From NCBI GenBank assembly GCA_030654175.1, contig JAURXZ010000006.1, positions 62,001 through 126,000 on the forward strand: a stretch of 64,000 nt of DNA, written 5' to 3'. Source of the DNA: Bacteroidia bacterium (lineage in GTDB: Bacteria > Bacteroidota > Bacteroidia > 2-12-FULL-35-15). Positions 3,687 through 50,766 of the stretch are shown here, in pieces (position 1 is the first letter of the stretch; every line of letters begins with the position of its first letter). The position numbers and the translations under genes were made by a program. The notes beneath the pieces were generated by a model. The model did not search any database. It was not told the DNA's origin and was given only the letters and a program-made list of their open reading frames with translations.

Positions 3687-3808
3687 TGCGTTAGGGATTG
3701 CAGCGTAAATCCTTTTCTGTTTAGAAAAGATTGAAGTCCTTCGACTTCGCTCAGGATAAACTCCAAGCGCGCCCCCTTCTTTGAAAAAAGAAAGGAAAAC
3801 GCCCCAAA
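3687..3808 (+). repeat. Structured dispersed repeat, copy A
   Basis: This is the first of five copies (3687, 5689, 28776, 30572 reversed, 32809). It begins TGCGTTAGGGATTGCAGCG and ends near AACGCCCC. It contains a GGATT/AATCC stem, a TTTTCT/AGAAAA stem and a CTTCTTT/AAAGAAAG stem. Unlike the other copies it carries about 20 extra bases (CCTTCGACTTCGCTCAGG), which is itself a fragment of a widespread bacterial repeat. It separates the two CxxCH genes. Confidence 0.85.
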
Positions 3809-3819
3809 ATTATTAAATA

Positions 3820-4191
3820 ATGAAAAAAACAATTTTATCAGGATTCGTATTATTATTGATCTTTGCAACCTGCAAAACTGCCAGACAATCTGAAAAGACT
3901 GCTGTTACCCAACCTGCGCTCGATTGCAGTACTATGGATGTTACCTACAGCTTTGATATAAAACCTGTTTTTGAAACCTTTTGTTTCGAATGTCATGGAG
4001 AAAAAGAAGCAGAAGGAGGGTATAATTTCATGATGATCTCTGAAATAAAAAGAGCAGCCAAATCGGGTGCATTGCTTGGTTCTATCAAATGGAAAAGAGG
4101 ATTTTCACGTATGCCTGAAAAGGCGCCACAACTGGATGCACAGACGATCAATAAAATAGAATGTTGGATCAAAAACGGGATGAAAGAATAA
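3820..4191 (+). CDS. Small lipoprotein with a single c-type heme motif (CxxCH), copy 2
   Basis: The 123-aa protein is a diverged paralogue of the gene at 3246. It has a lipoprotein signal (GFVLLLIFATC), one heme motif CFECH near residue 60, the shared KRAAKSGALLGSIKWKRGF block with MPEKAP, and the shared tail KIECWIKNGMKE. Export followed by heme attachment is implied. Its stop overlaps the start of rarA in a TAATG arrangement, which suggests translational coupling although the two functions are unrelated. Molecular role beyond heme binding is unknown. Confidence 0.75.
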   Translation: MKKTILSGFVLLLIFATCKTARQSEKTAVTQPALDCSTMDVTYSFDIKPVFETFCFECHGEKEAEGGYNFMMISEIKRAAKSGALLGSIKWKRGFSRMPEKAPQLDAQTINKIECWIKNGMKE

Positions 4192-5471
4192 TGGAACATA
4201 TAATCCCACTTGCCGAAAGGATGCGTCCAACCAGTTTGGATAACTATATTGGACAAAAACACCTTGTGGGTGAAGGGGCTATTTTACGCAATGCAATTGA
4301 ATCTAACCTACTTCCATCTATTATTTTATGGGGCCCTCCCGGTGTTGGAAAAACCACCCTTGCCAATATTATTGCTCATCAGTTAAAACGTCCGTTCTAT
4401 GGATTAAGTGCGATCAATGCAGGCGTTAAGGATATCCGGGAAATAATTGACAAGGCAAAAAGTAACAGCTTATTTGCTCAGAAAAATCCAATTTTATTTA
4501 TTGATGAGATCCATCGTTTTAGTAAATCGCAACAAGATTCATTACTTGGTGCGGTTGAAAAAGGGGTTATCACTTTAATTGGAGCCACCACCGAAAACCC
4601 TTCATTTGAAGTTATTTCAGCTCTTTTATCCCGCTGCCAGGTATATATTTTAAAACCACTGGATAAAGAGGATCTGCTTGCAATGCTTGATCTGGCAATG
4701 AAAACAGACAGTATTTTAAAAACAAAGAACATCCGTATCCTTGAAGGTGAAGCTTTATTAAGGCTTTCGGGAGGTGATGGACGAAAATTATTAAATGTTT
4801 TTGAGTTGGTGGTAAACACAATTGGTAGTGATGAAATTGAAATAACCAATGAAAAAGTAACCAATATTATCCAGCAAAACATAGCATTATACGATAAGGC
4901 AGGAGAAAATCATTACGATATCATTTCTGCATTTATTAAGTCCATTCGCGGTAGTGATCCAAATGCTGCTGTGTACTGGCTTGCCAGGATGATTGAAGGT
5001 GGCGAAGACCCTTTATTTATTGCAAGAAGATTGGTAATACTTGCTTCGGAAGATATTGGTAATGCTAATCCTACAGCCCTGGTGATCGCAACTAATTGTT
5101 TCCAGGCAGTGAACGTGATCGGGTTCCCTGAATCACGAATAATTTTATCGCAAGCAGTAACGTATTTAGCTGCATCCGCCAAAAGCAATGCAGCTTATAT
5201 GGCTATTAACAGTGCTATTGAAGCCGTAAAAAATGGCGGAGACCTACCTGTGCCCCTTCATTTGCGGAATGCTCCAACCAAACTGATGAAGGATATTGGT
5301 TATGGAAAAGAGTACCAATATTCACATGGTTACACCTCCAACTTTTCGAATCAGGAATATTTGCCCGAGGGCCTTAGCGGAGTGAAATTTTATGATCCGG
5401 GAAATAACGCCAGGGAAAAAGAAATAAGAGACCATCTGAAAAAATTGTGGGGAGATAAGTATAAGTACTAA
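4191..5471 (+). CDS. rarA: Replication-associated recombination protein A (RarA/MgsA AAA+ ATPase)
   Basis: The protein belongs to the clamp-loader-like RarA/MgsA/WRNIP1 family that acts at stalled replication forks. Walker A is GPPGVGKTT at about residues 48-56 and Walker B is ILFIDEIHRF at about 101-110; TTENPSFEV is the sensor-1 region. The C-terminal half carries the MgsA tetramerisation region, for example SAFIKSIRGSDPNAAVYWLAR and YGKEYQYSHGY. The ORF track starts at 4161, but the in-frame ATG at 4191 is preferred because it removes a 30-base overlap and yields the family start MEHIIPLAERMRP. The length is then 426 aa, normal for the family. The start overlaps the preceding stop as TAATG. 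Confidence 0.93.
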   Translation: MEHIIPLAERMRPTSLDNYIGQKHLVGEGAILRNAIESNLLPSIILWGPPGVGKTTLANIIAHQLKRPFYGLSAINAGVKDIREIIDKAKSNSLFAQKNPILFIDEIHRFSKSQQDSLLGAVEKGVITLIGATTENPSFEVISALLSRCQVYILKPLDKEDLLAMLDLAMKTDSILKTKNIRILEGEALLRLSGGDGRKLLNVFELVVNTIGSDEIEITNEKVTNIIQQNIALYDKAGENHYDIISAFIKSIRGSDPNAAVYWLARMIEGGEDPLFIARRLVILASEDIGNANPTALVIATNCFQAVNVIGFPESRIILSQAVTYLAASAKSNAAYMAINSAIEAVKNGGDLPVPLHLRNAPTKLMKDIGYGKEYQYSHGYTSNFSNQEYLPEGLSGVKFYDPGNNAREKEIRDHLKKLWGDKYKY

Positions 5472-5614
5472 GTCCAATTCTAACTCAACTGCCCTCCTAC
5501 CCTTATTTATCGGGATAAATTCCTGCAATAGATCTTTCAGTAAAAAAATAACAAAGTAAATTTCGCGCAAAATACAAGATTCATTTCGGAAGCTTTGTTA
5601 TGTGAGCCTGAAAT

Positions 5615-5662
5615 TGTTGTTTTGTGTTCATTCCCAACTTGTTTCGGAATCTCATAAAGATG
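5615..5662 (+). repeat. Decayed 'AACTTGTTTC' palindromic repeat
   Basis: The segment CCCAACTTGTTTCGGAATCTC followed by ATAAAGATGCT resembles a decayed hairpin repeat. Related fragments occur near 13640 (CTCAACTTGTTTCAGAAG) and 33490 (TAAACAGGTTTCAGCATC). This is the only recognisable content of 5472-5688. Confidence 0.4.
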
Positions 5663-5688
5663 CTAAAAAAAGTTCTTTTTCATCGCAA

Positions 5689-5788
5689 ATGCTGCGTTAG
5701 GGATTGCAGCGTAAATCCTTTTCTGTTTAGAAAAGATTGAAGCGGAAAGCCCGCCCTTTTCTTTTTCAAGAAAAGGGAACGCCCAAAT
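5689..5788 (+). repeat. Structured dispersed repeat, copy B
   Basis: This is the cleanest copy. It opens ATGCTGCGTTAGGGATTGC and closes GGGAACGCCCAAAT. Stem 1 is GGATT/AATCC, stem 2 TTTTCT/AGAAAA, and stem 3 CCCTTTTCTT/AAGAAAAGGG; GCGTT at the start pairs with AACGC at the end. It lies in the 458-base gap between rarA and the lipoprotein gene, where no gene is seen. Confidence 0.88.
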
Positions 5789-5929
5789 GAACATGCTTTT
5801 TAGACTAATTATTTTTATTTTATTAATTGAATACAGGTAAAAAAGGACACCAAAAAATTTTTTTATCATTAAGAAATCAAATATTTTCACTATTTTTAAA
5901 ACCCTATTGACGCTTTGATAGCTTTAAAA

Positions 5930-28775: not shown

Positions 28776-28879
28776 ATGCTGCGTTAGGGATTGCAACGTA
28801 AATCCTTCTCCGATTTTTCATCGGAGAAGATTGAAGTGAAAAGCCCGCCCTTTCTTGTTTAAGAAAGGAACGCCCAAAT
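28776..28879 (+). repeat. Structured dispersed repeat, copy C
   Basis: ATGCTGCGTTAGGGATTGCA to GGAACGCCCAAAT. Stem 2 here is TTCTCCGAT/ATCGGAGAA, different in sequence from copies A and B but still perfectly paired. Stem 3 is CCTTTCTT/AAGAAAGG. It lies between pyrB and the STAS gene. Confidence 0.88.
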
Positions 28880-30571: not shown

Positions 30572-30682
30572 TTAGGGCGTTCCCTTTCTAAAAAGAAAGG
30601 GCCGGGCTTTGCACTTCAATCTTTTCTTCCGCTAATTAGCGGAAGAAAAGGATTTACGTTGCAATCCCTAACGCAGCATTCA
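30572..30682 (-). repeat. Structured dispersed repeat, copy D (reverse orientation)
   Basis: On the minus strand AATGCTGCGTTAGGGATTGC runs to GGGAACGCCCTAAT. Stem 2 is CTTCCGCTAATTAGCGGAAG, again a new but fully paired sequence, and stem 3 is CCCTTTCT/AGAAAGGG. It occupies part of the 435-base gap between pyrR and the sigma factor gene. Confidence 0.88.
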
Positions 30683-32808: not shown

Positions 32809-32907
32809 TGCGTGAGTGATTGTAGCGAAAATCCTTCCCCGATTTTTATCGGGGAAGATTGAAGCGGAAAGCACGACCCGCAGCGCAGCAAAGGGACACG
32901 CCCAAAT
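32809..32907 (+). repeat. Structured dispersed repeat, copy E (most diverged)
   Basis: TGCGTGAGTGATTGTAGCG to CACGCCCAAAT. Stem 2 is TTCCCCGAT/ATCGGGGAA, still perfectly paired. Stem 3 has decayed to ACCCGCAGCGCAGCAAAGGG. It lies between rpe and sixA. Confidence 0.75.
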
Positions 32908-50370: not shown

Positions 50371-50484
50371 TACAAACGATTAAGCGTTAGCTAAAATCAT
50401 TGGCAACAAACGGTAAAATTGAATGGATAGAAAAATGTTAACCTATTTATCTATTCTTCGCCTTTTCTCCGAAAGCTACAAATG

Positions 50485-50742
50485 GTAATGCAAATGGCAG
50501 GTCTTCTGACTTGTTCTGTTTTTAACGCCTTCCCGTCTTTAGATGAATCAAGATAAAAGAATCAAGATTTAAGACAGTGGCAAAATGAATGTTAAAAAAA
50601 TATTTAGAAAAAGTTAACTTCAAAGTGATATATAAAGCAAACTTTACAACTTTGAACTTTAAACTTTAAACTAAATAAGAACTTACAGCATCGGGAAATG
50701 TTCAGGATTATACCTGATTCCCTTTTAATTCCTCAAAATGAA
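50485..50742 (-). promoter_or_regulatory. Cobalamin (B12) riboswitch upstream of btuB
   Basis: On the minus strand the conserved core is visible: GGGAATCAGGTATAATCCTG, then CATTTCCCGATGCTGTAAG, later GCCACTGTC, GACGGGAAGGCG and finally AGTCAGAAGACCTGCC. These match the family's GGGAA..GGT..AATCC, CCCGC.ACTGTA, GCCACTG and GTCAG.AGACCTGCC boxes. Between CTGTA and GCCACTG there are about 100 bases, containing a word array. It should switch off receptor expression when B12 is abundant. Confidence 0.9.
50640..50680 (-). repeat. Word array inside the cobalamin riboswitch
   Basis: CAACTTTGAACTTTAAACTT then TAAACTAAATAAG lies in the peripheral variable region of the aptamer. The same words fill the gap at 57329-57480. 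Confidence 0.7.
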
Positions 50743-50758
50743 GAAACCAATTGCGGAA

Positions 50759-50766
50759 CAAATGTA
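50759..50766 (-). promoter_or_regulatory. -7 promoter box of the B12 operon
   Basis: TACATTTG on the minus strand matches TAnnTTTG and lies about 17 bases upstream of the riboswitch core, which gives a leader starting close to the aptamer. Confidence 0.55.

Follow-up and report, generated by a model that had tools for sequence, protein, structure and literature searches.

A covarying Flavo-1 repeat of a Bacteroidia genome behaves as mobile intergenic DNA and may form the core of IS982-related MITEs

Flavo-1 was reportedly found in a 2022 survey to be among the most abundant sRNA families. Rfam catalogues the motif (RF01705) as an "sRNA" of unexplained function, and it has been listed as 'probably' an RNA and not cis-regulatory (PMC2864571). 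In the transcriptome of F. psychrophilum, Flavo-1 matches lie sense or antisense indistinctly and many fall in untranscribed regions (PMC9723704), a pattern that agrees with a DNA element. Miniature elements (MITEs) derived from IS982 are also known, from Cardinium (MITECca01; PMC9769881).

The repeats described here share the core hairpin sequence and structure of the Flavo-1 motif (RF01705, PMC2864571), but whereas Rfam models 76 positions as an sRNA, the unit is longer, with a third hairpin, a GCGTT/AACGC closure, AT-rich arms and, in some copies, IS982-type ends, and its copies behave as a mobile DNA repeat. They resemble MITECca01 (PMC9769881) in length (~210-240 bp), in having no ORF and ends matching IS982, in the 5-bp target duplication of the best copies, and in the remnant of the parental IS found in a relative. 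They differ from it in that the core is an independent, covarying Flavo-1 and not a leftover of the IS, that sister MITEs carry other palindromic cores, and that most copies are dead. With REP/RAYT systems they have in common that they are intergenic, palindromic, of high copy number and strand-neutral, but they show no RAYT linkage, a larger three-way fold and, in the least decayed copies, IS982 ends. In their modular hairpins, which receive insertions at set internal positions, they may resemble the ERIC and BOX repeats, intergenic composites that contain nested palindromes.

The window is a stretch of 64,000 nucleotides from a Bacteroidia genome of 5.10 Mb in 51 contigs (G000). It contains five copies of the repeat, with the following features.

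3688..3804, + strand: Flavo-1 copy 1 (GCGTTAGGG...AACGCCC), below the Rfam gathering score owing to a nested module
3737..3767, + strand: nested palindromic module TCCTTCGACTTCGCTCAGGATAAACTCCAAG in copy 1, in place of some of the core hairpin's 3' arm
5677..5693, + strand: left-arm remnant TTTTCATCGCAAATGCT of copy 2 (score 26, control maximum 10), whose outer end is not placeable
5694..5784, + strand: Flavo-1 copy 2 (RF01705, 52.5 bits)
5785..5838, + strand: right arm of copy 2, with a decayed IS982-type terminal repeat, AATTGAATACAGGT, at 5825-5838
28781..28875, + strand: Flavo-1 copy 3 (RF01705, 59.2 bits)
30575..30674, - strand: Flavo-1 copy 4 (RF01705, 55.3 bits)
32810..32903, + strand: Flavo-1 copy 5, of the GCGTGAG...ACACGCCC subfamily (RF01705, 64.5 bits)

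These repeats belong to the Flavo-1 family; four of the five, at 52.5-64.5 bits, exceed the RF01705 gathering score, which is 42. Copy 1 falls below this threshold because the TCCTTCGACTTCGCTCAGGATAAACTCCAAG module replaces part of an arm; the same module is enriched in Flavo-1 relative to the remaining tiles, and occupies the equivalent position in the copies at L097:2752 (-), L121:9991 (+) and L150:18200 (+). The dispersed ~100-bp repeat with five copies described in an earlier note on this DNA is thus real, with GCGTTAGGGATTGCA (up to 2 mismatches) occurring four times in the window against a mean of 0.05 in shuffled sequence. The flanks that the earlier note ascribed to all five are common to four of them, which begin with GCGTTAGGGATTGCA and finish with AACGCCC, whereas copy 5 starts with GCGTGAGTGATTGTA, finishes with ACACGCCC and represents a separate subfamily. 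A genome-wide search of the kind that it had proposed returned at least 135 copies, counted as exact matches to GCGTTAGGGATT (67 on the forward and 68 on the reverse strand; the reversed control pattern gave 0); 92 of these at least 135 copies, in ~1 Mb of sequence, were examined. The window also holds a Cobalamin riboswitch match with a long insertion (50479-50766, - strand, 51.8 bits).

The fold supported by the copies is a three-way junction closed by GCGTT/AACGC, which bears out the multi-branch arrangement with this outer pairing proposed earlier. The Flavo-1 arm comprises GGG/CCC followed by UU/AA, a 2-bp helix between purine-rich internal loops, AAUC/GAUU and then the variable stem 2, while the third branch of the junction is the variable stem 3. 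A GGATT/AATCC stem, also proposed, found no support, since the partner of GGG is the distal CCC and that of AATC is GATT; the columns of these two helices are all invariant, and the evidence from covariation comes from the neighbouring ones. In 41 aligned copies, 99.6% of 894 cells are paired, compared with 93.8% after shuffling, and the covariation score of 0.204 (0.090 in shuffles, sd 0.007) is reached by none of 500 shuffles. When the registers are slid, only 41-58% of the cells in these 41 copies are paired. Pairing in stems 2 and 3 greatly exceeds that of a null built by mixing arms from different copies, and in the conserved core columns 16:62 are GC in 23 copies, AU in 16 and broken in 2. 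The repeats thus present the covarying hairpin with conserved purine internal loops expected of Flavo-1. RNA folding of the five window copies gave z-scores of -2.1 to -5.9; when two copies were folded as single-stranded DNA, the plus strand had z-scores of -4.75 and -5.76 and did slightly better than the minus strand.

All 92 copies examined in G000 are intergenic, with none inside an ORF, and the orientations of the flanking genes (30 ++, 27 --, 18 +- and 11 -+) show no preference. The distance to the next gene is larger on the 5' side of the element (median 106 bp) than on the 3' side (65 bp; P 0.0003), and the 5' side carries more other small repeats. Within the tiles L093-L152, gaps above 250 bp number 18 on the 5' side and 1 on the 3' side, an asymmetry that is independent of gene orientation and for which the longer left arm accounts only in part. 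Another dispersed repeat of ~160 bp, with many matches in G017, adjoins a Flavo-1 copy at L096:17546-17707. In G009:C1 (L019), two Flavo-1 copies lie in duplicated ~320-bp segments beside an RHS-type coding sequence, so that duplication of gene-end cassettes can take Flavo-1 with it.

The number of copies detected in congeneric genomes ranges from 0 to over 60, and close relatives differ in the individual copies that they carry, which is not the fixed genomic position in all relatives that the earlier note had named as counting against its proposal. At the sites orthologous to the window copies in G017, whose DNA is ~88-90% identical to that of G000, only a remnant, GAAGAAAGGAACGCCCAA, is left of copy 3 (28781), the element is absent for copy 4 (30674), and only a short intergenic gap, with no element, corresponds to copy 5 (32810). 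Copies are shared, reduced to remnants or wholly lost in G017 and G022, and neither genome yielded a clean empty site, in which the target would stand once.

Comparison of shared sites also revealed that whole hairpins are replaced. At ten sites shared with G017 in the same orientation, stem 2 was judged by eye to be replaced wholesale, and still paired, in four (L066, L078, L085 and L086), and to have diverged with compensation in another (L070). One more site (L080/L115) shows inversion of the element in place, with short AATGTTT/AAACATT repeats on either side, and G022 has an inverted copy at the L117 site; inversion thus concerns one or two orthologous sites, where independent reinsertion into the same gap is a lesser possibility. 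A CTTCGAC module is nested at one G022 site and absent there from G000, and the same stem 2 is found combined with many different stem 3s. These observations are most simply understood as conversion-like exchange between dispersed copies. Block exchange of this kind can generate covariation without stepwise selection, and part of the covariation would then reflect swapping. The covariation reported in the earlier note is therefore real, but its conclusion that kept pairing means selection for structure was too strong, because en bloc replacement of hairpins at orthologous loci produces covariation by exchange.

The less decayed copies extend beyond the core to ~210 bp and end in the inverted repeats ACCTGAGTTCGATT/AATCGAACTCAGGT, which are identical to the ends of IS982 elements. 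Left arms are contiguous with the core in 33 of 90 copies and right arms in 16 of 90, above the maximum of matched control flanks; the few best copies from which the arm consensus was built count by construction, and the others do not. The same arms are present in G017 and G022. In copy 2 of the window, the right arm reached an anchored alignment score of 85 (control maximum 19) and finishes in AATTGAATACAGGT, a decayed form of AATCGAACTCAGGT. The terminal repeat (up to 1 mismatch) occurs ten times in the 5.1 Mb, in four cases as the end of a Flavo-1 element, facing outward. IS982-type ends are thus present in the least decayed G000 copies and decayed in G017 and G022, and most Flavo-1 copies have lost recognisable ends. 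Exact 5-bp duplications flank two of the ten two-ended copies, at L117:18200 (TAAAA) and L098:12724 (TACTA), for a permutation P of 0.03, while the total of matches is not significant (P 0.29).

The same perfect ends occur in a 491-bp deleted IS982 copy in G017, with a TATAA duplication, and these ends or an ACGTGAG variant delimit 52 near-full-length (~1-kb) IS982 elements in diverse Bacteroidetes, of which 19 are flanked by an exact duplication of 5 bp, in 17 cases TNNNA. Apparently intact IS982 transposases exist in other Bacteroidetes; no cognate transposase gene was detected in G000, and in G017 only the fragment in the deleted copy. Matches to NF033520 at L251, L252 and L270 belong to another IS982 group with different ends.

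Flavo-1-free sister MITEs with the same ends and other palindromic cores are found in G000, G015, G017 and G022. Those of ~203-226 bp (L457-L465 and L476 in G022; L243, L244 and L248 in G000) contain CCACGGTCT..AGACCGTGG and GGGCTAAAGCCC hairpins, and in G022, which has only a weak IS982-like match, many retain both ends intact and look recent. In L461, L466, L467, L471 and L472, MITEs with these IS982 ends have cores resembling the common TGTCAT..GAATGACA / CATGCTGAATGGAATGAAGC repeat, so that a single set of ends is found around several cores of no relation to one another.

As a general mover of Flavo-1, IS982 was rejected, because several Flavo-1-rich relatives (G003, G004, G011, G013 and G055) lack such ends. 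None was seen either around the Flavo-1 copies inspected in further genomes, and over 59 genomes Flavo-1 counts correlate only weakly with IS982 ends (rho 0.22, P 0.10). In G004, G055, G026 and G034 the copies fall into lineage-specific subfamilies whose outer sequences differ, some of them again with nested palindromes at the stem tips. An IS982 carrier explains at best the expansion in this lineage. A longer autonomous element with Flavo-1 ends was sought and not encountered among the 92 copies examined. The GTT/AAC order of the ends is opposite to that of attC, and an attC-like site was rejected by inspection on this ground. A classic DDE MITE bounded by the core ends would show a duplication of fixed length, whereas 90 copies gave no direct-repeat signal next to GCGTT/AACGC at any offset.

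This lack of a fixed duplication at the core ends is what would be expected of Y1 elements, and agrees with the suggestion, made in the earlier note, of a REP-like element moved by an unlinked RAYT transposase. Flavo-1 itself would then be REP-like and moved in trans by a RAYT or another Y1 enzyme, the IS982 ends being a later capture in one lineage. The sharp core boundaries and the little conserved outer sequence in G055 and G004 fit such a mechanism, as does the weakly positive correlation between Flavo-1 and Y1 counts (rho 0.26, P 0.047, 59 genomes). G000 contains three IS200-type genes and two RAYT genes:

L012:1426-1956, + strand: RAYT gene
L013:1264-1794, - strand: RAYT gene

Each has palindromes of its own on its flanks, of the GGCGCTAAGC type in one case and the GGCGCGAGTG type in the other, with no Flavo-1 within ~1.5 kb of either gene. 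They make up two REP/RAYT pairs unrelated to Flavo-1. Nor does a Y1 transposase accompany every amplified genome, with no match in G044 (27 copies), G050 (8), G031 (8) or G005 (5); these are drafts, in which absence is uncertain, and G050 is at 100% completeness. RAYT linkage was thus looked for and not found, and of the earlier suggestion the dispersed, structured, REP-like character stands while the RAYT as mover lacks support. We consider movement by a Y1 enzyme unlikely. Less probable still is that Flavo-1 is a conserved non-coding or cis-regulatory RNA, with copies kept as genes or leaders for an RNA function. The covarying fold and the RNA folding z-scores would suit such an RNA, and some of the F. 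psychrophilum matches do coincide with transcribed regions (PMC9723704), but the same study places matches in both senses and often outside such regions. The genomic context argues against an expressed-RNA function, copies having no strand or position preference relative to genes, varying widely in number among congeneric genomes, and being lost, inverted or hairpin-swapped at orthologous sites; the structured RNA or attenuator considered in the earlier note thus receives little encouragement.

A further alternative concerns the origin of the covariation, and is compatible with the explanation that we prefer, namely that it arises mainly from DNA processes (hairpin-templated correction, conversion, nested palindromes) with little or no selection on structure. 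Stems replaced en bloc, one stem 2 shared among many stem 3s, and the unrelated CCTCTCC..GGAGAGG and CTTCGAC..GCTCAGG palindromes nested at hairpin tips in several genomes are all in its favour, but the point-like compensatory changes of the core, as in columns 16:62, and the conserved purines of the internal loops suggest that something reads the fold, and we give this reading a little less than an even chance.

On balance, we slightly favour the explanation that Flavo-1 is mobile intergenic hairpin DNA, of which the GCGTTAGGG subfamily is the core of an IS982 MITE whose copies exchange sequence. In the lineage of G000, G017 and G022, GCGTTAGGG...AACGCCC would have formed the structured core of a ~210-bp MITE, which an IS982 transposase acting in trans on ACCTGAGTTCGATT/AATCGAACTCAGGT would have moved to TNNNA targets with a 5-bp duplication. 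The transposase gene would later have disappeared from G000 and persisted only in part in G017, and in most copies decay would have overtaken the ends and the AT-rich arms. Uniformity of the core may have been maintained by sequence exchange, through conversion-like replacement of whole hairpins and in-place inversion at one or two sites, probably aided by the self-complementarity of the copies. Alternatively, an IS982 MITE may have captured a core that was older and already mobile by itself. More tentatively, Flavo-1 may be an exchangeable structured DNA cargo, for which IS982 MITEs, and perhaps other vehicles, serve as interchangeable carriers, as they would for CCACGGTC-type palindrome cores, the cores swapping hairpins and thereby mimicking the covariation of a functional RNA. 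In the literature searched, we found no description of a covarying 'RNA family' that forms an IS982 MITE core and exchanges its hairpins in blocks.

Flavo-1 has been filed since 2010 as a probable RNA, and its behaviour as mobile DNA, with a plausible carrier in one lineage, turns this into a testable question of annotation. Strong covariation across dispersed copies can arise by block exchange of hairpins, and catalogues of RNA families built from repeats may be over-interpreted.
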